Source: Aminobacterium mobile DSM 12262 (GTDB taxonomy: Bacteria; Synergistota; Synergistia; Synergistales; Aminobacteriaceae). From it: 64,000 nucleotides of DNA. The stretch lies in contig NZ_JAFZ01000002.1 in the NCBI RefSeq assembly GCF_000526395.1, positions 64,501 to 128,500 of the forward strand, given 5' to 3'. The first letter of the stretch is position 1, and the number at the start of each line of letters is the position of its first letter. The position numbers were made by a program, and so were the translations under genes. This document shows positions 30,939 to 41,740 of the stretch, piece after piece. The notes below the pieces were generated by a model. That model was not told the DNA's origin and made no database searches. It saw only the letters and a program-made list of their open reading frames with translations.

Positions 30939-30954
30939 ATAAAGGATGGCATAC

Positions 30955-32211
30955 ATGCGCTATATAAAACAACCTCAAGTAGTTTCTTGCGATGGGAACA
31001 ACACCTTTCAGCACGTTACACAAAATATTGTTATGCGGGTGCAAGAGGAAGGTTGGCCTGCTGTGAAAGAATATGCCCGCGATTTCGATAATTATAAAGG
31101 GTCTTTTTACGTCTCCCAAGAAGAAACGAACCAGGCCCTATCCTCTCTTCCCTCCTCTATTCGCAGCGCCCTGGAACGAGCTATCACAAATGTGAGGATT
31201 TTTCATAAACGACAAAAAGAAATGTTCCAACCCATATTGTGCCCAATCGAAAAAGGGGTCACGGCAAGCTTACGTTTTTTGCCAGTCCGACGGGCCGCCA
31301 TATATACCCCAGCTGGACGATACCCTCTCCCGAGCACTGCTATTATGGGTATTGTTCCCGCTCAGGAAGCAGGGGTCCAGGAAGTGGTCTTGTTTTCCCC
31401 ACCTACAAAAGAGGGAAAACTGGCTCCAGTAATTGCGGCTACTGCCGCCTTGCTGGGCATAAAAGAAGTATGGGCTCTTGGTGGAGCTCATGGTGTTGCT
31501 GCTATGGCTACAGGAGCAGGCCCTATCAAAAAAGTCGACATGATCGTTGGCCCTGGAAATGCCTATGTTACTGAAGCTAAGCGAATTCTATCTGGCATTG
31601 TAGGAATAGATGGACTGGCTGGCCCAAGTGAGGTTCTTATTATTGCTGATAATACAGCGCACCCTCTCTGGCTAGCTGCCGATATTGCCGCTCAGTCTGA
31701 ACACGATCCTATGGCCACTAGCACTCTTCTCTGTACCGATGAAGATATCGCAATACAAACACTTAAAAAATTGAATAAATTATTAGAAACCCTTCCTACG
31801 GCAAATATTGCAAAACAGGCTTGGGAAACAAATGGAACCATCGCTGTATGCTCTTTAAAAGAAGCTATTATCGAATGTAATAAACTCGCCCCCGAACATC
31901 TTCAGCTTTGTGTAGATACTCCAGAGAATGTTTTAGGGGCATGCACATCCTATGGTGCTGCTTTTCTAGGAAACTGGACACCTGTTCCCTTTGGAGACTA
32001 TATTGCCGGGACAAATCATACTCTCCCAACCAGCAACAGGGCCCGTTATGCAGGAGGGCTCTGGACCGGTACCTTCTTACGCCCCATGACCTCACTACAT
32101 ATTGATAGGAACGGGGCAGAACTTTTAGCGGAAGACGGCATGAACCTGGCCCATATTGAGGGACTCGCCGCCCATAGTCTGTCTATGGCTTTACGGAGGA
32201 ACCGTCCATGA
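30955..32211 (+). CDS. hisD: histidinol dehydrogenase
   Basis: HisD oxidises histidinol to histidine in two NAD+-dependent steps. The 418-residue sequence has the conserved GPGNAYVTEAKR and GPSEVLI(I)AD, and zinc site residues in QSEHDP and PEHLQ. The C-terminal half has THTLPT-like NHTLPTSNRARYAGGL. ATG at 30955 has AAAGG nine bases upstream. An earlier ATG at 30946 directly abuts that site. It is the first gene of the his operon. Confidence 0.96.
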   Translation: MRYIKQPQVVSCDGNNTFQHVTQNIVMRVQEEGWPAVKEYARDFDNYKGSFYVSQEETNQALSSLPSSIRSALERAITNVRIFHKRQKEMFQPILCPIEKGVTASLRFLPVRRAAIYTPAGRYPLPSTAIMGIVPAQEAGVQEVVLFSPPTKEGKLAPVIAATAALLGIKEVWALGGAHGVAAMATGAGPIKKVDMIVGPGNAYVTEAKRILSGIVGIDGLAGPSEVLIIADNTAHPLWLAADIAAQSEHDPMATSTLLCTDEDIAIQTLKKLNKLLETLPTANIAKQAWETNGTIAVCSLKEAIIECNKLAPEHLQLCVDTPENVLGACTSYGAAFLGNWTPVPFGDYIAGTNHTLPTSNRARYAGGLWTGTFLRPMTSLHIDRNGAELLAEDGMNLAHIEGLAAHSLSMALRRNRP

Positions 32212-33419
32212 ATCGTCTACCACGAGGCTGTATCAATGTAGGGGGCTCTGTAGCTATTTCTATGGATCGCTGCAGAAAAGTTTTTATGGACCTCTTTGCT
32301 CCTTTTGGGTATGAACCTTTCTGGCCATCAGTTCTACAACTTCTGGAATCGGCTTGGCCACATCTTCCGCTCCCTTTTCGTCGTCGACTTATTGCTCTCA
32401 ACACACCCTACGGGGAACCATGCTGCCTAAAAGCCGATTTAACTTTAGCGGCAGTCGCTTATTTCGCTTCTCACTATGCCCCCGGACAGCAACCTTTACG
32501 CCTTTGTTATGCTGATCGTATTTTTAAGAGACCCGAAAGGCATGAGAACCGTATAGAAAGCTTCCAGATAGGCGCCGAGCTTTTGGGGTGGGAGGGAGAG
32601 GGCGCCGACATAGAGATACTCTGGCTCTTATTGCAATGGCTCGACGGGATAGGACTTGATCAGAGTGTTCTTGTTATTGGCGATGTAACCTTTCTTCAGT
32701 ACGCTCTGACCAACGTAAAGGCTACGGTGGCAGAGCGCCTTTCAACATACCTTCAGGAGGGGAATCTCGTAGCGTATGAAAAGGCTCTCTCTACATATGA
32801 CATTCCAGAATATAGCTATAACATTCTGAAACATCTTCCCCATCTGAAAGGGGGGGAAGGCATTCTAAATAGAGGAGACAGTCTCATCGGTTCGTCGCAA
32901 CATTTGGCTCCTCTACGGAAAATATTTCACACTCTTGATGATCTTGGATATGCCGAGAGAATTACATTAGATCTGAGTCTAATTCGAGAGCTTCATTATT
33001 ATAGCGGTCCAGTCTTTCATATCTATGCCTGCCCATCTGGTCCTCTGATAGGTGGAGGCGGTCGCTATGATGGGCTCCTTGCAGAATATGGGCTAGGGGG
33101 CCAAGCAATTGGCTTCGCCGTTGACCTGGAAGAAATAGCCACTCTATCTCATCATTTCTCAACGCCCCGTTCCGCCATGATATGGAGCGCACTTCTTCCG
33201 CCAGAGTCTGCATTAAAGCGTGCTTCAGCCATATTCAAACGTGGCATAAGAGGAGAAATAAGCTGGAATAATAATGAGAAGCAATCTTATGATTCAGCTA
33301 AAGAAAGAGGCTATGAATGGTGGATCAATCTGGCAACAGAAGAGGTAACGAACCTGAAAACACACAAAAAAACGCCCCTTACACTATGGAAGAGGGGGGA
33401 GATACCATGCTCACAATAG
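32208..33419 (+). CDS. hisZ: ATP phosphoribosyltransferase regulatory subunit
   Basis: HisZ is a catalytically dead class II histidyl-tRNA synthetase paralogue that activates the short HisG enzyme and carries its histidine feedback control. The 403-residue protein keeps the synthetase fold, with the LCYADRIFK-like motif 2 region and GGGGRYDGLL (about 282-291), but lacks an anticodon-binding domain. It overlaps hisD by four bases and hisG by 13. With the short HisG downstream the hetero-octamer assignment is firm. Confidence 0.9.
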   Translation: MNRLPRGCINVGGSVAISMDRCRKVFMDLFAPFGYEPFWPSVLQLLESAWPHLPLPFRRRLIALNTPYGEPCCLKADLTLAAVAYFASHYAPGQQPLRLCYADRIFKRPERHENRIESFQIGAELLGWEGEGADIEILWLLLQWLDGIGLDQSVLVIGDVTFLQYALTNVKATVAERLSTYLQEGNLVAYEKALSTYDIPEYSYNILKHLPHLKGGEGILNRGDSLIGSSQHLAPLRKIFHTLDDLGYAERITLDLSLIRELHYYSGPVFHIYACPSGPLIGGGGRYDGLLAEYGLGGQAIGFAVDLEEIATLSHHFSTPRSAMIWSALLPPESALKRASAIFKRGIRGEISWNNNEKQSYDSAKERGYEWWINLATEEVTNLKTHKKTPLTLWKRGEIPCSQ

Positions 33420-34057
33420 CTTTACCAACAGGCCGCGTCATGAGAAATGCTATAGATTTTTGTGAAGAGATGGGGCTCCCAGTAGCAAAATTGAGAGAAA
33501 CTGGACGTCAATTAGTTGTTCAAGAAGGGGATTTCCGTTACATACTGTCTAAACCTTCAGATGTTCCTCTTTATGTAAGCCACGGGGTTGCTGATATTGC
33601 TCTTGCGGGAAGCGATGTACTCAGAGAATGTACTGTGGATTACGTAGAACTAGCAGACACAGGGCGTGGACAGTGTCGGATCGTTATAGCCGGACCTCAA
33701 AAATTAAGAGTTCTCTTTTCTGGACACCCATCAGAGCTAATGTGGCTCAAAGTTGCTACAAAATATCCCCATATAGCTGACTCTTACTTTTCAGAAATGG
33801 GCGTCCAGGTAGAAATAATTCACCTTCACGGATCCATAGAACTTGCGCCAACTCTCGGCATGAGCGACTGTATTCTCGACATTGTTCAGACAGGAGACAC
33901 GCTTATAGCCAATAAACTAGTAGTACTTAAGGAAATAGCGCCCGTCTCTCTTCGGCTTATAGCAAGCCGGCAAAGTGTCTCTTTAAAGTGGCAACAAACA
34001 ATGGCTCTTCTTAAGACCATAACAACACCGAAAGGAGAAACGTCATATGAGCACTGA
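33407..34057 (+). CDS. hisG: ATP phosphoribosyltransferase, short form
   Basis: HisG makes the first committed step, joining ATP and PRPP. At 216 residues it is the short form without the C-terminal regulatory domain, so it needs HisZ. Landmarks are LTIALPTGR at the start, DVPLYVSHGVADIALAGSDV and the PRPP loop DCILDIVQTGDTL (about 157-169). I choose ATG at 33407 with GGGGGAGA upstream. A long upstream frame lies inside hisZ. It overlaps hisB by 11 bases. Confidence 0.95.
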   Translation: MLTIALPTGRVMRNAIDFCEEMGLPVAKLRETGRQLVVQEGDFRYILSKPSDVPLYVSHGVADIALAGSDVLRECTVDYVELADTGRGQCRIVIAGPQKLRVLFSGHPSELMWLKVATKYPHIADSYFSEMGVQVEIIHLHGSIELAPTLGMSDCILDIVQTGDTLIANKLVVLKEIAPVSLRLIASRQSVSLKWQQTMALLKTITTPKGETSYEH

Positions 34058-34616
34058 ACTAGAGCGGCAAAGCAGAGAAACATCCGTTTCTCTATGTATA
34101 TCTATCCCAGGAGATACGTGGACTCTAGATATACCCTGCGGCTTCCTTCGTCATATGATCCATCTTTTTCTCTTTCATAGCAACATTGGGGCTATTATCA
34201 AAGCCACTGGAGACCTCAAAGTAGATGCCCACCATCTTACGGAGGATATAGGAATTCTTCTCGGCAGGGCTTTTCTGAAAGAGCTGGAAGGACAAACTAT
34301 ACATCGTTACGGCTGGTGCGCTATGCCTATGGATGGCTCCCTTGCTCTTGTAGCAGTAGACATTAGTGGGCGGGGACAATTCTTTTGGGATGGAACTTTC
34401 CCTACAGCCACATGTGGAGATTTTGATCTTGAGTTAGTTCCTGAATTTTGGAAGGCATTTTGCAGGGAAAGCCGCATGACAATCCATGGACGTTTGTTGG
34501 CTGTAGATAATAGTCATCATGGCACGGAGGCTCTTTTTAAAGGTATAGGGCGGGCAATGAAAGACGCCGTAACATCTACAGACAGTCTTCAATCCACAAA
34601 AGGAATACTATTATGA
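34047..34616 (+). CDS. hisB: imidazoleglycerol-phosphate dehydratase
   Basis: IGPD, 189 residues, removes water from imidazoleglycerol phosphate. The metal-binding motifs DAHHLTED (about 60-67) and DNSHHGTEALFK (about 152-163) are intact. The usual FLDHM is FLRHM here, with the histidine kept but Asp replaced by Arg, and the N-terminal strands are divergent. There is no fused phosphatase domain, so histidinol-phosphate phosphatase must be encoded elsewhere. Confidence 0.92.
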   Translation: MSTELERQSRETSVSLCISIPGDTWTLDIPCGFLRHMIHLFLFHSNIGAIIKATGDLKVDAHHLTEDIGILLGRAFLKELEGQTIHRYGWCAMPMDGSLALVAVDISGRGQFFWDGTFPTATCGDFDLELVPEFWKAFCRESRMTIHGRLLAVDNSHHGTEALFKGIGRAMKDAVTSTDSLQSTKGILL

Positions 34617-34658
34617 TCGACACTCAAATATATTTTATAGAAATTGGAGAGGTTTTTC

Positions 34659-35381
34659 ATGATTATTTATCCCGCTATTGATCTTTACAAAAACAAGGTT
34701 GTTCGACTTCGACAGGGAGATTTTAGCCAACCGGTGTATTATCCTCTCTCACCTCTGACTGCTGCCAAATCTTTTGTAGAAGCTGGAGCATCGTGGGTTC
34801 ATATTATAGATCTAGAAGGAGCCCAAGAGGGGCATCCTGCCCATTTACACATAATAAAGCCTATGCGGGAACTAGGACTTTCTGTTCAATACGGAGGCGG
34901 GCTTCGAACTATCAAAGACGTAAAAGAAGCTTTTCAGGCCGGTGCTAGTCGCCTCTATGTCGGAAGCCTCATTTGTCAATACAAAGACATAGCAGAGCAG
35001 CTCTACAAAAGTTGGGGAGACCTCATTATTCCAGCTATAGACATTAAAAGAGGGAAAGTGACAGTCAAAGGATGGACAACAACTCTTCAGTATTCTCCCG
35101 CCCATCTCCTGGACTATATGTATTACATTGGCTACACCACCATGCTCGTAACAGCTGTTCAAAAAGACGGTACGGCAGAGGGTCCAGACAAAAATCTCTA
35201 CATCAAGCTTAAGCAAAAATTTCCAGGCCTCTATTTTATTGCTGCAGGGGGTATCGCTTCTCTAGTAGATATAGCAGAACTCAAAGCCATGGGATTAGAA
35301 GGAGCTGTAGTAGGACGAGCTCTTTATGATGGAATCATACATCTAAAGGATATTTTAAATGAGGTGGCTCTATGTCAATAA
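34659..35381 (+). CDS. hisA: HisA isomerase (ProFAR to PRFAR)
   Basis: HisA is a (beta-alpha)8 barrel of 240 residues that converts ProFAR to PRFAR. The catalytic Asp is in YPAIDLYKN (residue 8), with a second acidic residue in VTAVQKDGTAEGP and the phosphate sites in QYGGGLRT and AAGGI. ATG at 34659 has GGAGAGG upstream; a start five codons earlier is unsupported. Only 42 bases separate it from hisB, where hisH is normally found. Confidence 0.95.
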   Translation: MIIYPAIDLYKNKVVRLRQGDFSQPVYYPLSPLTAAKSFVEAGASWVHIIDLEGAQEGHPAHLHIIKPMRELGLSVQYGGGLRTIKDVKEAFQAGASRLYVGSLICQYKDIAEQLYKSWGDLIIPAIDIKRGKVTVKGWTTTLQYSPAHLLDYMYYIGYTTMLVTAVQKDGTAEGPDKNLYIKLKQKFPGLYFIAAGGIASLVDIAELKAMGLEGAVVGRALYDGIIHLKDILNEVALCQ

Positions 35382-36136
35382 AACGCATTATTCCGTGTCT
35401 CGATGTAAAAAACGGACACGTCGTAAAAGGAATCAACTTTGTAAACCTAAGAGATGCTGGAAATCCTGCTGAAATGGCCCAACACTATGAGAAAGAACAA
35501 GCTGATGAATTGGTTTTCCTCGATATATCCGCCACACAGGAGGGTCGCAGTACTCAAAAAGAATGGGTGAAAGATGTGTCCAACAACCTATCCATTCCTT
35601 TCACAGTAGGAGGTGGGATAGGCTCTCCTCTTATTGCCCAAGAACTCATATCTCTTGGAGCCACTAAAATTTCTCTCAATACTGCTGCCGTACAAAATCC
35701 AGAGCTTATTTGTCTTTGCGTTGATCTTCTAGGAGAGGACAAGGTCGTACTTGCGGTAGATGTTAAAGAGACCCAAAAAGGATTTTGGGAGGTCTTCATA
35801 AATGGAGGGCAAACCCCTACGGGACTTAATGCTTTTCAGTGGATGAAACAGGGAGTAGAAATGGGGTGTTGCGAAATACTACTTACGTCTATGGATCGTG
35901 ACGGAACCATGAAAGGATACGATATTCCTCTCCTCTCTTCAGCAGCACAAAATCTTCCTGTCCCCATCATAGCTTCAGGTGGAGCCGGAACAAAAGAACA
36001 CATACTCGAAGGACTCCAGATCGGATGTGATGGTGCTCTTGCAGCCTCCATCTTTCACTTTGGGGCTGTGCGTATTCCGGAATTAAAAAAATGGCTACAG
36101 GCTCATGATGCCTCAGTTCGCCTGAAAGAGGATTAA
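35372..36136 (+). CDS. hisF: imidazole glycerol phosphate synthase subunit HisF
   Basis: HisF is the cyclase subunit, 254 residues, with catalytic Asp in IPCLDVKNG (residue 11) and in LAVDVKE (about 130). It normally receives ammonia from the glutaminase HisH. No hisH is present in this operon, so HisF either uses free ammonia or works with a HisH encoded elsewhere. It overlaps hisA by 10 bases. Confidence 0.96.
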   Translation: MSIKRIIPCLDVKNGHVVKGINFVNLRDAGNPAEMAQHYEKEQADELVFLDISATQEGRSTQKEWVKDVSNNLSIPFTVGGGIGSPLIAQELISLGATKISLNTAAVQNPELICLCVDLLGEDKVVLAVDVKETQKGFWEVFINGGQTPTGLNAFQWMKQGVEMGCCEILLTSMDRDGTMKGYDIPLLSSAAQNLPVPIIASGGAGTKEHILEGLQIGCDGALAASIFHFGAVRIPELKKWLQAHDASVRLKED

Positions 36137-36138
36137 AA

Positions 36139-36774
36139 ATGGATTTTTCAAAAGTATGTTTTGACGATCAAGGGCTTATACCCGTAATAGTGCAAAATAG
36201 TTCCAGCAAAGAAGTTCTTATGCTGGCTTATGCCAATCGCCAGGCATTGGAAGAAACGGAAAAGACTGGAGAAATGTATTTCTGGAGCCGCTCCAGACAA
36301 AAACTATGGCATAAAGGAGAAACAAGCGGCAATACGATGAGAGTGGCAGGTCTTAGTCTCGATTGCGATGGCGATACGATTCTAGCGGAAGTGGAACCAG
36401 CCGGTCCTGCATGTCATACAGGGGCACGAACTTGTTTTTTCCGATCCTTACTTGAAAATACAATATGCTCTGCTCCTCATAAATACACAGCCCATTTTTT
36501 GGAGAAGCTTTGGTTTTATTTAACTGAACGCCAACATCACGACCCTTCCAAAAGCTATACAGCTCAACTCATTCAATCTGGGAAGAAAAGAACCGCCCAA
36601 AAAGTAGGAGAAGAAGGGGTGGAAACAGCGTTGGCTATTGCCGCTGGAGATACGGAAGAGGTCATCTATGAAGCTGCAGATTTAATCTACCACCTCATGG
36701 TAGGATTGCTTTCTGCCCATGTTTCTTTTTGGGACGTAATAGAGGAACTAAAAAGACGCCATAAAACTGCTTAA
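36139..36774 (+). CDS. hisIE: HisIE bifunctional PRA-CH/PRA-PH
   Basis: This 211-residue fusion hydrolyses PR-ATP and opens PR-AMP. The N-terminal cyclohydrolase (about 1-105) has MLAYANRQALEET, metal residues in SLDCDGDT and CHTGARTCF. The C-terminal pyrophosphatase (about 115-205) has KVGEEGVETALA. It is the last gene of the operon and its stop codon overlaps the stop of a convergent PHP gene (TTAATTA at 36771-36777). No terminator is visible between them. Confidence 0.96.
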   Translation: MDFSKVCFDDQGLIPVIVQNSSSKEVLMLAYANRQALEETEKTGEMYFWSRSRQKLWHKGETSGNTMRVAGLSLDCDGDTILAEVEPAGPACHTGARTCFFRSLLENTICSAPHKYTAHFLEKLWFYLTERQHHDPSKSYTAQLIQSGKKRTAQKVGEEGVETALAIAAGDTEEVIYEAADLIYHLMVGLLSAHVSFWDVIEELKRRHKTA

Positions 36775-37526
36775 TTAGGCCATGGGGAAAGAACACATCG
36801 CCCTTTTTTTTTGCCGAGGGCCAACACAATTTCATCAAAAGACGCCTCTGCTAAAAGGAGTACGGAACCATTCTCTGCTATGAGGCTCTTCAGCCAGTGA
36901 GAATCGGAGGATCGTAAAAAAGTCCTTCCCGGATACTGAGCCTGAAGTGCCTCTACTTCATTAGGGAAACATCGCCAGGAGATTTCAAGAGCATCGACAG
37001 GAAAGGATGATGGGATTGGTCCCAAAACAGCAGGATAGGAAAAAGAAGGCCGATCAATATGAGCCAAAATAACAAGGCCACCCTGTCTTTTCGCTTCAAG
37101 AGCTACCTCATCTACAGAATATCCAACCCCTTGGACTAAGAGTATCTCCTCTTCGTAAAGAATATCGTTCTTCTCAGAAATAACCAATTGATCTCCAAAT
37201 ATCTCGGGGCGATTGTGGATAAAAGGCATACGCTTCCAAAGCCAATTCTGAAAGATTTCCGCCGTTTTATAATCTCTAAAGAGGGTAACGATATGAATAT
37301 CTTCTATTGTCTGGACCTCTATACCTGGAATAACCACAGGATTACTTTGTGCTGCCCTAAGCACAGCAGGCACATTCAAAGCAGAATTATGATCTGTTAC
37401 AGCTATAATCTCTATCCCCTCTCTCCTGGCCTTCAGCACGATGTCTGGAGCACCCATTTCCAGCTCGCCACATGGAGAGAGAACTGTGTGGATATGGAGA
37501 TCCACATGGAAAGGTTTAAGTGGCAT
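36771..37526 (-). CDS. PHP domain phosphoesterase
   Basis: This 251-residue PHP protein has the metal ligands of the first motif in VDLHIHTVLSP (about 8-18), HNSALN in TDHNSA, H in ILAHIDRPS and SSDSHW later. PHP proteins of this length include RNase AM/YciV and histidinol phosphatases. This one ends an operon with an [FeFe]-hydrogenase-like protein and DRTGG proteins, a neighbour set also seen around hydrogenase genes in other anaerobes. The start ATG at 37526 lies seven bases after the upstream stop codon. Starts further upstream would overlap that gene. It could act on a nucleotide signal, which is inference. Confidence 0.82.
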   Translation of the reverse strand: MPLKPFHVDLHIHTVLSPCGELEMGAPDIVLKARREGIEIIAVTDHNSALNVPAVLRAAQSNPVVIPGIEVQTIEDIHIVTLFRDYKTAEIFQNWLWKRMPFIHNRPEIFGDQLVISEKNDILYEEEILLVQGVGYSVDEVALEAKRQGGLVILAHIDRPSFSYPAVLGPIPSSFPVDALEISWRCFPNEVEALQAQYPGRTFLRSSDSHWLKSLIAENGSVLLLAEASFDEIVLALGKKKGRCVLSPWPN

Positions 37527-37533
37527 GGAGATC

Positions 37534-37905
37534 TTATACAGATGCCCGCAATCCCATTTCATATAAATGCCCGCATATTTCAAAAACAGGCAAGGGAGAA
37601 CATGCCAGAGTCAATTGTTCCTCGCGGCACCTCTCTATTAAATCTTCTGCTGGGCGACGTCCTGCGCCTACGATAATTAAGGGGATATCTTTTAAAACAG
37701 CAACTGCCGCTATATTCAAATGAGTCTGGACAGTGATCCATACCCATCTTTCTTTTGCTGTGGCCATGACAAAACTCAATAAATCGCCAGCAATAGCCCC
37801 CTCTACATTTATATCCTCTCTACCTTTTGCTACAACTTCAAGACTAAGTTTCTCTACTACAGTCTGAGTATTCAAAATCACCCCTCCTTTACGAGCCAAA
37901 AGCAT
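37534..37905 (-). CDS. DRTGG domain protein (second copy)
   Basis: This 123-residue protein has a DRTGG-like domain: EGAIAGDLLSFVM (about 35-47), VWITVQTHLNIAAVAVL (about 55-71) and IIVGAGRRPAEDLIERCREEQL (about 77-98). The domain resembles the N-terminal half of HPr kinase/phosphorylase and the CBS-linked pyrophosphatases. No catalytic residues are known. It overlaps the hydrogenase-like gene by 17 bases. It is a distant paralogue of the 39644-40009 product in the same operon. Confidence 0.75.
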   Translation of the reverse strand: MLLARKGGVILNTQTVVEKLSLEVVAKGREDINVEGAIAGDLLSFVMATAKERWVWITVQTHLNIAAVAVLKDIPLIIVGAGRRPAEDLIERCREEQLTLACSPLPVFEICGHLYEMGLRASV

Positions 37906-39187
37906 GAGGCACTCTCCCTGACAAATTAGAAATCTCTTTACTCAAGTCAAGAATTCGTTCACGAAGCTTAAAAATGCAATCCGTCATTTCACCCTTCCCT
38001 CGCACTATATCTTCAGCCATGGCTCGACAGGATGGACGACCACATGAGCCACAATCAATATGGGGCAATTCTGCATAAATAGCATTCATATCTTTGAGCT
38101 TTGCCATCGCCTCACTTAAGTCGCTAGAAAGAGGAAGCCTCTGTTTAGGTTCAATTGTCTGTTCCAACTGCCAAATCCCTTTTTCATACCAACTGATGAT
38201 CCGAGCCATTTCTTCCTCAGAAATGCTCCAATCCATCTTCATGTCGTCTATACGCAATCGTGAAAGGAACCGGGACTCATGAGTACCTACCCCTCCAATA
38301 CACCCTAAATCACATGCCCGACACTCCACGTAATCCACCCCTCCCAGGCGCCCTAGCTCAAGCTCAGTTAAAAGATCCATGGTGTTTCGTAACCCCGATA
38401 CTGCCACAGTGCGTAAGGGGCGATGGGAAAAAGATGCCACGTGGTAAGACTCTCCACCGGTTATAGACCACTTCAACCACCGATCATTTGTTTTATGAAG
38501 AACCTCTCCAGAAACTTTGGGGCTTCCAGCAAGAATGTCGTGGACAACCCGTCGAACCGACACAGTATAAGCGATAGTACTCAACTCTCGTCCTACAGGG
38601 TTTCGAACAAGAGTCATTTTCGCAGGGCAAGGCGCAATGAGGGTAATATCATCTTTTCGTTCCGTAGCATCTCGCCATAAAGCAACACTTGACTCCAAAG
38701 GGGATTCTACAGGCACCAAACGACCGGTAAGTTCGGGGAAATTGATCTGGATCAACCGTATAACTGCAGGACAGTAGGTAGAAATCAAAGGGAGACGCTC
38801 TACTTTTTCAGATTCTATAGAGCGGGCAATGGCATATGCCGCTACATCAAATGCCAAAGCTTCATACTCTAAAATATCCTCCATTCCATCAGATTCCAAA
38901 GCCTCTTTAACAAGGGAAGGAGACTCATATGAACCAATTTGCACATAGAAGCAAGGATCTGCAATAAGAACAAGCTTTTTCTGGGATCTGAGAAGTTCCC
39001 ACTCGTCTTCATTGAGAATTATGGCTTTTTCTCGACACTTACGAATACACTCACCACAATCGATACAGAGATCTGAAATTATATGGACACAGCCGGTAAA
39101 TACCCGCATCGCTTCAGTGGGACACGTTTTAATGCAATTCGCACAACCTCGGCACCGTACCTCCTGAACCCTGACTCCGCCAGCCAT
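37889..39187 (-). CDS. [FeFe]-hydrogenase-like iron-sulfur protein
   Basis: This 432-residue protein has a two-cluster ferredoxin domain (C12, C15, C18, C22 and C41, C44, C47, C51). A region like the large subunit of [FeFe]-hydrogenase follows, with L1-like STYCPA (C139), L2-like APCPAK (C187) and L3-like ECRACDLGCIGG (C289, C292, C296). A C-terminal 4Fe-4S domain has C379, C382, C387 and C404. The four cysteines that hold the H-cluster cubane in true hydrogenases appear conserved, but the proton-relay cysteine before the L1 ligand is Tyr. I infer a redox or H2-responsive sensor or regulatory partner, not a catalytic hydrogenase. Confidence 0.85.
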   Translation of the reverse strand: MAGGVRVQEVRCRGCANCIKTCPTEAMRVFTGCVHIISDLCIDCGECIRKCREKAIILNEDEWELLRSQKKLVLIADPCFYVQIGSYESPSLVKEALESDGMEDILEYEALAFDVAAYAIARSIESEKVERLPLISTYCPAVIRLIQINFPELTGRLVPVESPLESSVALWRDATERKDDITLIAPCPAKMTLVRNPVGRELSTIAYTVSVRRVVHDILAGSPKVSGEVLHKTNDRWLKWSITGGESYHVASFSHRPLRTVAVSGLRNTMDLLTELELGRLGGVDYVECRACDLGCIGGVGTHESRFLSRLRIDDMKMDWSISEEEMARIISWYEKGIWQLEQTIEPKQRLPLSSDLSEAMAKLKDMNAIYAELPHIDCGSCGRPSCRAMAEDIVRGKGEMTDCIFKLRERILDLSKEISNLSGRVPHAFGS

Positions 39188-39205: not shown

Positions 39206-39640
39206 CTAGCCCTTGTGAAAAAAAATAGTGGCGCTTAAAACAGTTCCCTTCCCTATCACAGAGTCAATCTTCATCTTATCTGAATGCCGTTTAATGTTAG
39301 GAAGCCCCATCCCCGCGCCAAAGCCCAACTCTCGCACCTCATCTGAAGCAGTGGAATATCCTTCCTGCATAGCCAGATCTATGTCGATAATGCCTGGCCC
39401 CGTATCGATCGCCCATATTTCAAGACGATCTGTATACACAGCTAATCGAATAGTCCCCCCACCTGCATGAAGGACAAGGTTCATTTCTGCTTCATAAGCA
39501 ACAACAGAGGCGCGGCGGATAATATCTGAGGCAATACCCAACATTTTCATCGTAGCTTTGAACTGGGTAGAAGCTTCGCCTATAGCCATAAAATCCCGTC
39601 CTGCCACAGTATATTCTTCTATGTACGGCTCCTGTATCAA
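39206..39640 (-). CDS. RsbW/SpoIIAB-like ATP-binding regulatory protein
   Basis: This 144-residue GHKL ATPase has N-box EAEMNLVLHA (about 49-58), DTGPGI (about 79-84) and G-box GFGAGMGLPNIKRHSD (about 106-121). It resembles anti-sigma factor serine kinases but has no partner anti-anti-sigma gene in the window. The TTG start at 39640 follows GAGAGGTG. It lies between a DRTGG gene and the hydrogenase-like gene, so it probably phosphorylates or binds one of those proteins. Confidence 0.8.
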   Translation of the reverse strand: MIQEPYIEEYTVAGRDFMAIGEASTQFKATMKMLGIASDIIRRASVVAYEAEMNLVLHAGGGTIRLAVYTDRLEIWAIDTGPGIIDIDLAMQEGYSTASDEVRELGFGAGMGLPNIKRHSDKMKIDSVIGKGTVLSATIFFHKG

Positions 39641-39643
39641 AAC

Positions 39644-40009
39644 CTACACCTCTCTGGCAGGAATATCGCAGGGCAGGACTCCCTCTCTATAGAGAATTCC
39701 ACACGTCTCGAACATACTGTTATGGCATAAAATTACAGGCATTTCCAGCTGAGCAGCTAATTTCACCGCCCCTTCCTGCGGTCGTTTCCCACGTACAAAT
39801 ACTACCGCTGGAATATCAAGCATTTGTGCCGTACGAATAATCTGTACATTTGTGAGCCCTGTAAGAAGCAAGGATCCAGGTCGTGCAAAAGCTAAAACAT
39901 CGCTCATAAGGTCAGCTCCATAAGCATATTCAATCTCTATTGTATCGAGCAAATTTTCACCATACAATATTTCGCCATGAATGTGCCTTACTACTTCACG
40001 AAGTTTCAT
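39644..40009 (-). CDS. DRTGG domain protein (first copy)
   Basis: This 121-residue DRTGG-like protein has YGADLMSDVLAFARPGSLLLTGLTNVQIIRTA (about 30-60) followed by VFVRGKRP and a final strand VILCHNSMFETCGILY. It shares the order of motifs with the downstream copy at 37534-37905, so the operon holds two forms. The start ATG follows GGGAGGTTGGGGGG. Confidence 0.75.
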   Translation of the reverse strand: MKLREVVRHIHGEILYGENLLDTIEIEYAYGADLMSDVLAFARPGSLLLTGLTNVQIIRTAQMLDIPAVVFVRGKRPQEGAVKLAAQLEMPVILCHNSMFETCGILYREGVLPCDIPAREV

Positions 40010-40033: not shown

Positions 40034-41233
40034 TTAGTCTGCGTTTGCACCTCGAACTTTCAACACAGCTACTGTCTGAAACCTATTGTTTTCTACTTTC
40101 ATAATCGCAACTTGCCGCTCTTCAGGACGGTGTGTTAAAGAGTTAAAACGCAAAGGTTCCTTCCCTAAAGTAATGCCTTCTACATCTGTCATCCCTTTAG
40201 CTATAACATCTGGAGAAGACATCCCAGCCCTCTGAAGGGCTGATAAAAGCCACATGCCACTTGTCCAGGCCCGCGCCGCTGCCACGCGATCTGGAATATG
40301 TTTTCTCGTAATCTGCCATATTTTCCTTTCGAGGACAGCCAAATATGGATCTTCCTCCAAGGGTCTTTTCTGGCTTACCGCTATCAAGCCAGTACACCTC
40401 AACAGCTCTCTATCAATAGGTTCTCCGCCATACCAGAGAGCAAAAGCCTCTCCTCTTTGATGACGCTGCCGATAGATATCTGTAACAGATAGAGTATCCA
40501 GCCAGAGGATAAAAGCTTTCGCCCCTCCCTGTGTAGCCTCCTGACATACCATCTGGTATCCATTATCGCCCGCCCCCCTCTTCCAAAAAGCCAAAGTTGA
40601 GCGCCCATGTTGGTCGGCAAGAGCTGCATACAAATCGGCACACAGAGATAAAACAGGGTCAAGGCCATCTACAAACTGTGCTACAGGCACCCCTTTGGGA
40701 AGAGTTTTCTCCCCATATTGAGCCAAAGCCCCTGCTCTGTGCGATAGAGGCAAATCGAGGGCAAAAGCGTAGGGGTACACTTTCCCCGTCGCATCACGTA
40801 GAGAAACCCCTTCTCCAAAAGCAGAAAGAAAAAGAGGCCCCATCACTCCCACTTGGGGGATAAGCTCTTTATCTACATGATCACCAGAAAAACTTAAAAG
40901 AGCCACACGATTGCTCCACTCGCCTAACCGTTCAGTTGTTTTCCCCACTTCCAGAGGAGACTCTTTCACAAACAAAACATCGTATCCGGCAAGACCCCGG
41001 GCACTTTCATTCGTCTCTTTTTCTAGTATGGAGAGGGCAAGAGAGATGGACTGTCCCTCATCGCTCTCCCATCCCCCTGCTGGAGGCAGAACAGAAACGA
41101 TCCAAATCCACCCTTCCTTTAAGCCTGTCTGCTGGTCTTGAGACAAGACTGCCCCGCAGCTCGGCCCAATTAATAAACAAACAATTACACCCGCAACAAA
41201 AGCAACAAATGAGATCTTTCGTAAAACCTTCAC
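40034..41233 (-). CDS. periplasmic binding protein, branched-chain amino acid type
   Basis: This 399-residue secreted protein has a signal peptide (residues 1-28) and a type I periplasmic-binding fold (LivJ-like), read from VSVLPPAGGWESDEGQSISLALSILEKE and ALWYGGEPIDRELLRCTGLIAVSQ. No transporter permease or ATPase genes are nearby. It may feed a sensor, or it may have lost its transporter. It begins nine bases after the adenosine-specific kinase gene and precedes the DRTGG/Fe-S module, so it is probably in the same transcript. The GTG start at 41233 has no strong ribosome binding site. Confidence 0.78.
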   Translation of the reverse strand: MKVLRKISFVAFVAGVIVCLLIGPSCGAVLSQDQQTGLKEGWIWIVSVLPPAGGWESDEGQSISLALSILEKETNESARGLAGYDVLFVKESPLEVGKTTERLGEWSNRVALLSFSGDHVDKELIPQVGVMGPLFLSAFGEGVSLRDATGKVYPYAFALDLPLSHRAGALAQYGEKTLPKGVPVAQFVDGLDPVLSLCADLYAALADQHGRSTLAFWKRGAGDNGYQMVCQEATQGGAKAFILWLDTLSVTDIYRQRHQRGEAFALWYGGEPIDRELLRCTGLIAVSQKRPLEEDPYLAVLERKIWQITRKHIPDRVAAARAWTSGMWLLSALQRAGMSSPDVIAKGMTDVEGITLGKEPLRFNSLTHRPEERQVAIMKVENNRFQTVAVLKVRGANAD

Positions 41234-41242
41234 GATTTCTAC

Positions 41243-41740
41243 TTACCGTTTATACCCAATAATATCCCGCAACAGCTTTTTTCGCGCCATTACGTCTTCT
41301 TCTTTTTCAACACCTTTAGGAATAAATCCGTCTATAACCCCCACAACACCTCGCCCTTGCTCGGACTCACAGATAACAGCCTGAATGGGGTTCGCTGTCG
41401 CTGCAAAAATGCGGCAGACTTCCTGGCAGTTTTTAATGCGGTCAAGAATATTAATGGGATATCCGTTGCGAAGCACTATGATAAAAGTATGCCCTGAACT
41501 CAGCTTTTTAGCGTTATTGACAGCTATTGTTATAAGATCTTCGGCATTACCATCGCAGCGAATAAGGCAATCACCTGATGCCTCACAAAAAGCAATTCCG
41601 AACTGAAGTGAAGGGGACGAAGTGATAAGGGCTTCATATAGATCCTCTACGGTTTTTATAAAATGGCTCTGCCCAAGAATAATATTACAATCTTCAGGAT
41701 ACTCCATCTGCTCAAGAACCCAACGACGAATCTCTGGCAT
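41243..41740 (-). CDS. adenosine-specific kinase family protein
   Basis: This 165-residue protein matches the PF04008 family by IILGQSHFIKTVEDLYEALITSSPSLQFGIAFCEASG (about 21-57) and GVVGVIDGFIPKGVE near the end. The family was named from a thermophilic archaeal protein proposed to bind adenosine. Its cellular role is poorly known. The ATG follows AGGAGGAGCTATAA. Confidence 0.82.
   Translation of the reverse strand: MPEIRRWVLEQMEYPEDCNIILGQSHFIKTVEDLYEALITSSPSLQFGIAFCEASGDCLIRCDGNAEDLITIAVNNAKKLSSGHTFIIVLRNGYPINILDRIKNCQEVCRIFAATANPIQAVICESEQGRGVVGVIDGFIPKGVEKEEDVMARKKLLRDIIGYKR

Follow-up and report, generated by a model that had tools for sequence, protein, structure and literature searches.

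A group-D-type [FeFe]-hydrogenase-like protein of Aminobacterium mobile, a possible iron-sulfur regulator without the [2Fe] subsite

The hydrogenase-like gene and its cassette

The window considered here, a stretch of 64,000 nucleotides from Aminobacterium mobile DSM 12262, carries on its minus strand (37889-39187) an ORF of 432 amino acids that translation, Pfam, alignment and tree identify as a group-D-type [FeFe]-hydrogenase-like protein (HydS-like). Pfam recognizes Fe_hyd_lg_C (E 6.6e-18) and a C-terminal FeS domain (E 1.4e-12). The N-terminal ferredoxin domain (39014-39175, minus strand; Fer4-type Pfam matches) holds two [4Fe-4S] sites, with cysteines C12, C15, C18, C22 and C41, C44, C47, C51. 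The alignment locates three H-domain motifs on the same strand: L1, ISTYCPA (residues 135-141; 38765-38785); L2, APCPAK (residues 185-190; 38618-38635), with ligand Cys187 and Lys190, the latter aligning with the CpI Lys358 position; and L3, ECRACDLGC (residues 288-296; 38300-38326), with ligands Cys292 and Cys296. Within LISTYCPA (residues 134-141), Tyr138 (codon 38774-38776) stands just before ligand Cys139, and Arg290 (codon 38318-38320), next to ACDLGC (residues 291-296), occupies the position of CpI Met497. The C-terminal FeS domain (PF04060, residues 374-406; 37970-38068, minus strand) has the form Cx2Cx4Cx16C, here C379-x2-C382-x4-C387-x16-C404.

We aligned the protein with group A, C and D proteins, the group A and group C rows coming from the same phylum and CpI itself being absent. 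Tyr138 aligns with the first cysteine of the group A motif TSCCP (CpI Cys299), and Cys139, Cys187, Cys292 and Cys296 align with the four ligand positions of the [4Fe-4S]H cubane. The preliminary description had read L1 as STYCPA with Tyr beside a cubane ligand, had found the cysteines of APCPAK and ACDLGC intact and had noted a C-terminal four-cysteine domain; translation and alignment agree with it on each point, and the cysteines do fall on H-cluster positions. In five of the seven group A rows the motif is TSCSP, which puts Ser in the Cys139 column (CpI Cys300 position). In the phylum at large, L1 is TSCSPGW, again with Ser at the Cys300 position, in 29 of the 30 FeFe-hydrogenase loci that score highest (L018-L047, nearly all of family f8). 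An AlphaFold model of the 432-residue protein (pLDDT 94.4) has FeFe-hydrogenases as its best structural matches, with CpI (4xdc) at Z 33.7 and rmsd 3.1 over 340 aligned residues. The CpI residue numbers used here are the customary ones, in part as given in PMC8163306 and PMC11803613.

The gene belongs to a tight run of seven genes on the minus strand, with gaps of 9, 24, 3 and 18 bases and then overlaps. Directly upstream is a stand-alone HATPase_c protein, SpoIIAB/RsbW-like (39206-39640; Pfam), preceded by a DRTGG-domain protein (39644-40009; PF07085, E 5.8e-8). Downstream lies a second DRTGG-like protein (37534-37881), which has no Pfam match of its own and was recognized by tblastn cross-match to the DRTGG proteins at about +830; its ORF is listed to 37905, and the GTG at 37881, after AAAGGAGGG, is the likelier start. 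A PHP-domain phosphoesterase (36771-37583; PF02811, E 1e-6) overlaps this gene. Further upstream is a Peripla_BP_6-like protein (40034-41233; a weak Pfam match below the cut-off), probably exported, as judged by eye, and probably on the cassette transcript. An adenosine-specific kinase family protein (41243-41740; PF04008), separated from the next gene by 9 bases, shows a looser association. Scanning the region for promoters and terminators gave signals at or near the shuffled background. On the plus strand of the window (30946-36774) we recognize by eye a histidine biosynthesis operon of HisD, HisZ, HisG, HisB, HisA, HisF and HisIE, in which the space from HisB to HisA is too small for a HisH gene.

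Matches to the protein at E<=1e-20 occur in 94 of the 185 Synergistota genomes searched, some being only fragments or group C-like. Once fragments, additional copies and matches of group C type had been set aside, 84 near-full-length phylum homologues were counted. A search for relatives with the single protein as query confirmed none; an alignment-based search found 572, the best 80 of which supplied an outside sample of 68 group D proteins from other phyla. The same order on one strand recurs across phyla: DRTGG (about -1300), HATPase (-880), HydS, DRTGG (+830) and PHP (+1380). The cassette count took 54 of the 84 phylum loci, the other 30 being left out because of short flanks. HATPase stands beside HydS in 54/54 of these and in 65/68 outside loci (from the best 80 of 572 relatives), and PHP is found in 47/54 and 51/68, respectively; the Peripla_BP_6-like gene is confined to part of the phylum (20/54, and 0/68 of the same outside loci). 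The tallies for DRTGG are inflated because the two DRTGG queries cross-match, with matches at both positions in most loci. The HATPase neighbour in T. mathranii was noted earlier by Land et al. (PMC8163306). On DRTGG linked with hydrogenase, the open-access literature yielded one paper, unrelated going by its listing.

Group D membership and the Tyr138/Arg290 pair

The ORF had been described as a sensor-type hydrogenase core, and sequence, architecture and tree place it in group D (M2e). It has the group D combination of two N-terminal [4Fe-4S] motifs, an H-domain and a C-terminal Cx2Cx4Cx16C without a PAS domain. A tree of 50 rows, whose bootstrap had not fully settled, unites the Synergistota clade (support 100/100, on a long stem) with other group D proteins (95/93), apart from groups A and C. 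Matching architecture and tree thus assign the ORF to the group D clade on sequence grounds, an assignment distinct from the question of hydrogenase function. We rejected the earlier proposal that the four-cysteine domain replaces a PAS domain, which has the direction wrong: as described in PMC13104023, the domain is common to groups C and D, and group D architecture lacks PAS. Pfam finds no PAS domain after the C-terminal FeS domain, the mark of group C (M2f), and the group C proteins of Synergistota form a clade separate from the HydS-like one.

Conservation within the phylum is high. The N-terminal, H-domain and C-terminal cluster cysteines, including all eight of the first and all four of the last, are identical in 84/84 phylum homologues, and the C-terminal four recur in 68/68 group D proteins of other phyla, drawn from the best 80 of 572 relatives. 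Asp378, Glu392, Asp393 and Asp403, conserved at the C-terminal cluster of group D according to PMC13104023, which numbers them in TamHydS, bear the same numbers here and vary little or not at all among 30 phylum proteins. The group D proton-pathway glutamates are also present: Glu246 and Glu288 correspond to TamHydS E252 and E289, whose roles are given in PMC10407848, and are invariant in 84/84. At the CpI Met353 position, where Ser/Thr is described as well conserved in M2e (PMC8163306), though it does not define the group, this protein has Ala185. The 84 phylum proteins have Ala (46), Ser (27), Thr (6) or Val (5) there; outside the phylum, Ser/Thr occurs in 68/68 (best 80 of 572 relatives).

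The preliminary description was right that the proton-transfer cysteine is lost, but this is a trait of groups C and D generally, in which Cys299 is replaced, mostly by Ala (PMC10407848). Tyr138, like Arg290, is present in 84/84 phylum homologues, and because it is so fixed we rejected the idea of a single-gene oddity. In the 68 outside proteins (best 80 of 572 relatives), position 138 is Ala in 55, Ser in 10, Tyr in 2 and a gap in 1, and position 290 is Leu in 25, Gln in 15, Asn in 12, Met in 5, Ala in 4, Ser in 3, Arg in 3 and Trp in 1. In CpI, Cys299 is reported to lie within hydrogen-bonding distance of the ADT amine (PMC10407848), and Met497 to frame the di-iron site (PMC8163306).

Both outside Tyr proteins, L152 and L161 from Firmicutes MAGs, likewise carry Arg at 290, which lies 152 positions from residue 138. 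In a tree from which columns 138, 190 and 290 had been removed (43/84 phylum rows and 67/68 outside rows), they nest beside Ala/Gln sequences of Syntrophorhabdales and Deltaproteobacteria MAGs. On this tree, the pair appears to have arisen together a second time, from a separate origin. We then scanned all 432 columns for a change common to L152/L161 and the phylum clade and absent from three sisters: only columns 5 (Val to Ile), 138, 155 and 290 pass. Further bulky changes in the phylum clade, Asp77, Phe113 and His249, were considered as additional pocket filling and rejected, since L152 and L161 have Gly, Glu and Ala there; the parallel signal is thus confined to 138 and 290. With two events behind it, the coupling of Tyr138 and Arg290 is suggestive, not conclusive. 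A2 and A3 have 72 and 69 rows; the fragments L146 and L148 were left out of both, and also of the Lys190 count given below.

Maturases, Lys190 and alternative explanations

The Aminobacterium mobile genome (2.1 Mb, 99.7% complete) contains one FeFe-type match, the HydS-like protein itself. The HydE, HydF and HydG set for building [2Fe] was not found in it: HydG has no match at E<=1e-3, and HydF has none at E<=1e-40, nor has HydE, for which 1e-40 was the only threshold. Twelve matches to HydF, all below the cut-off, are confined to the GTPase domain, at about positions 3-176. The genus has two other genomes, one contig each, which gave the same result for maturases and FeFe-type proteins at the thresholds of the phylum search. 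The window's genome also has a NiFe operon (G000:C1 591000-596900, L134) with NuoF-like, NuoG-like and NiFe small and large subunit genes; apart from it, a complex I-like gene cluster lies near C1 923000 (L135). The NiFe operon resembles NiFe-HydABCSL and can cover H2 production.

For the 84 carriers, thresholds were E 1e-40 for HydF and HydE, the curated cut-off for HydG, and E below 1e-30 for another FeFe-type match. All three maturases were found in 31 carriers, a partial set in 15 and none in 38. Neither a maturase nor another FeFe-type match was present in 33 and both were present in 43; five had another FeFe-type protein without a maturase and three a maturase without another hydrogenase (G020, G151 and G154, two of them only 80-81% complete). 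The association has a Fisher p of 1.6e-14 with relatedness ignored, and 33 of the 36 carriers without another FeFe-type match below E 1e-30 have none of the three maturases. These counts indicate that maturases in the phylum track catalytic FeFe-hydrogenases, not the HydS-like protein. The Tyr/Arg pair is present alongside maturases too: 31 phylum genomes combine it with the full set, and HydF accompanies it in the genomes of L152 and L161.

Absence of HydE, HydF and HydG is not proof, because genome G112 (one contig, 99% complete) encodes a canonical HydA (motifs TSCCPAW, MPCLAKK and EVMAC) without detectable maturases. When HydF, HydG and part of HydE were compared by tblastn with all stretches of G112, GTPase-domain matches appeared and otherwise none better than E 0.08, HydG giving no match at E<=1. 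None of the three maturases was found in 6 of the 113 phylum genomes with a strong FeFe-hydrogenase. Outside the phylum, where HydF and PF02906 checks covered 50 of the 68 loci, no HydF was found at 1e-40 in 12/50 group D genomes, the isolate Papillibacter cinnamivorans among them, and 10 of these 12 have a strong FeFe-hydrogenase. A missing match may therefore mean a draft gap, divergence or an unrecognised route, and missing maturases make a complete H-cluster less likely without excluding it.

Two observations on other hydrogenases of the phylum deserve mention. In G112 (C1:936000-948000, L227) and G033 (L228), a canonical group A HydA with the motifs TSCCPxW, MPC..K and E.MAC lies beside a large HydB-looking ORF, with HydE, HydF and HydG not found in either; a maturase-independent hydrogenase or a recent loss is possible. 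In addition, HydE and HydF occur without HydG over the cut-off in 20 of the 113 strong-FeFe genomes (G105, G108, G113-G116, G121 and others). Some HydG-less genomes are contig-edge fragments (G089), and G121 is a single contig.

In CpI, Lys358 has a role in holding a cyanide ligand. The equivalent position, 190, is Lys in 31/31 phylum proteins from genomes with all three maturases. In the 15 partial-set genomes it is Lys (13), Arg (1) or Met (1), and in the 38 maturase-less genomes Lys (20), Arg (14), Met (2) or Val (2), a pattern we read as a sign that [2Fe] binding has been lost. The Aminobacterium mobile protein itself retains Lys. A comparable substitution is seen in the group C paralogue, whose L2 reads GPCIARK, with Lys replaced by Arg, in 5/5 genomes where no maturase was found (G027, G028, G030, G037 and G041); these five cases span two related genera and perhaps reflect a single event. 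The lysine is kept in 6/6 genomes with HydE and HydF (G105, G026, G035, G121, G134 and G163), HydG being over the cut-off in G026, G134 and G163 and in none of the other three. Loci L222 and L225, which had no match in the group C pattern scan and were added afterwards, both keep Lys. The group C PAS sensors L216-L220, with no maturases detected, read TTCPS, GPCIARK and ECFAC instead of TACPS, GPC.AKK and ECLAC.

We may hypothesize that the protein is a working group D H2 sensor with a complete H-cluster, its [2Fe] delivered by an unrecognised maturation route, Tyr138 standing in for Ala without blocking the site and Glu246/Glu288 serving as proton path as they do in TamHydS. The two invariant glutamates and the lysine kept here would fit such a sensor, as would the HydA of G112 and the fact that, of the 84 proteins, 46 come from genomes with one maturase or more. 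We nevertheless consider it rather unlikely, since searches of three genomes of the genus, including two single-contig ones, found no HydE, HydF or HydG, the lysine on the CN side is lost in 18/38 maturase-less genomes versus 0/31 with full sets, and TamHydS has the smaller residues Ala and Leu where Tyr and Arg stand here. A [2Fe]-less protein devoted to electron transfer or Fe-S delivery, in the manner of Nar1/IOP1, instead of sensing, would explain why every Fe-S cysteine is kept while no maturases are found; this seems to us improbable, as the fixed HATPase, DRTGG and PHP neighbours across phyla point to signalling.

Sequence identity within the genus is 84-85%, with dN/dS about 0.02-0.03 in the 2/3 pairs that were computable, and dN/dS is 0.021-0.084 in the 5/8 maturase-less pairs that were computable, dS being saturated in both comparisons. 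Such low values show that selection still acts on the gene. Although neither maturases nor a catalytic FeFe-hydrogenase were found, a degenerating remnant of a hydrogenase system that the lineage has lost is therefore very hard to reconcile with the low dN/dS, the intra-genus identity, the intact frame, the invariant cysteines and the intact cassette.

The proposed regulator and known systems

We judge it reasonably likely that the protein is a group-D-type regulator in a fixed cassette, which has kept four [4Fe-4S] sites but neither the [2Fe] subsite nor direct chemistry with H2; the ORF product would then probably be an iron-sulfur sensor and not a hydrogenase. In the following scheme, what we infer is the cluster content, the filling of the pocket, the signal, the contacts with partners and the output. 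Two N-terminal clusters, the H-domain cubane and one C-terminal cluster would be retained, with the [2Fe] half of the H-cluster gone and Tyr138 and Arg290 probably occupying or closing the vacated pocket. Electrons at ferredoxin level would pass through the N-terminal clusters to the H-domain cubane, whose redox or structural state the C-terminal cluster domain may pass on to the partner HATPase, which resembles an anti-sigma kinase. Phosphorylation or partner switching by the HATPase would in turn tune gene expression to the reductant pressure of the cell. The putative regulatory unit consists of HydS, the small HATPase, the two DRTGG proteins and the PHP phosphoesterase.

Published work on related sensors bears on this scheme. 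For TmHydS, PMC10055695 describes the Met497-position residue as sitting between the subclusters, and reports a [2Fe] signal about 2-fold lower when the Met353 position was occupied by a bulky residue; both points favour the [2Fe]-less reading. The C-terminal cluster of TamHydS is reported to undergo no redox-state change with H2 (PMC13104023), which weakens the signalling step of the proposed mechanism; at the same time, it argues against an H2-driven redox change at this cluster and leaves room for another signal. Several findings run against the [2Fe]-less reading: Lys190, Glu246, Glu288 and all cubane cysteines are kept in this protein, the Tyr/Arg pair is seen as well where the genome has a full maturase set, and maturases go undetected beside the HydA of G112 and in the phylum and outside cases counted above (6/113 and 12/50).

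More broadly, and tentatively, a clade of hydrogenase-derived regulators may have dropped [2Fe], the coupled Tyr/Arg filling the H2 site to yield an H2-independent [4Fe-4S] redox switch. The cassette would have outlived the FeFe-hydrogenases and maturases that it formerly served, and group C paralogues may be decaying likewise (Lys358 to Arg). The group D family itself is already known. Open-access titles and the opening lines of abstracts contained no report of the Tyr/Arg pair or of maturase-less group D proteins, which may be in print elsewhere. The larger point, an apparent inability of the organism to build the di-iron subsite, is invisible from the window sequence alone. A natural sensor clade without the cofactor-making genes bears on how group C/D sensory hydrogenases signal: a maturase-less clade with sensor and cassette would separate sensing through the Fe-S chain from sensing of H2 itself, and Tyr138 and Arg290 offer a two-residue test. 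Annotation of hydrogenases by PF02906 only may overstate H2 metabolism, with 33/84 carriers having no other FeFe-type match or maturase.

Among known systems, Nar1, IOP1 and NARF are hydrogenase-like Fe-S proteins that keep cubane clusters without [2Fe]; their architecture and role differ from those of the HydS-like protein. TamHydS of Thermoanaerobacter mathranii (group D, M2e) shares the two N-terminal [4Fe-4S] sites, the H-domain, the C-terminal Cx2Cx4Cx16C and the lack of PAS, as well as a replaced Cys299, the Glu252/Glu289 equivalents and an adjoining HATPase gene, as far as described in PMC8163306 and PMC13104023. L171 (T. wiegelii), a relative of TamHydS, has the same cassette. TamHydS differs in having Ala at 299 and Leu at 497 (PMC10407848, PMC11803613), where the present protein has Tyr and Arg. 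This protein further departs from TamHydS and group D at the Met353 position, where it has Ala and they have Ser/Thr, and from TamHydS in that HydE, HydF and HydG were not found and the genome has no other FeFe-hydrogenase match. TmHydS (group C, M2f), likened here by its description, is a putative sensor with H-domain and C-terminal FeS domain (PMC13104023, PMC10055695); in contrast, group C carries PAS, and the group C proteins of the phylum are a separate clade. Finally, the HydA subunit of NiFe-HydABCSL, a bifurcating NiFe enzyme of Acetomicrobium mobile, is another derivative of FeFe-hydrogenase, one without an H-cluster; according to PMC8880783 it is without the H-cluster ligand residues, whereas the cubane ligands of the HydS-like protein are intact.
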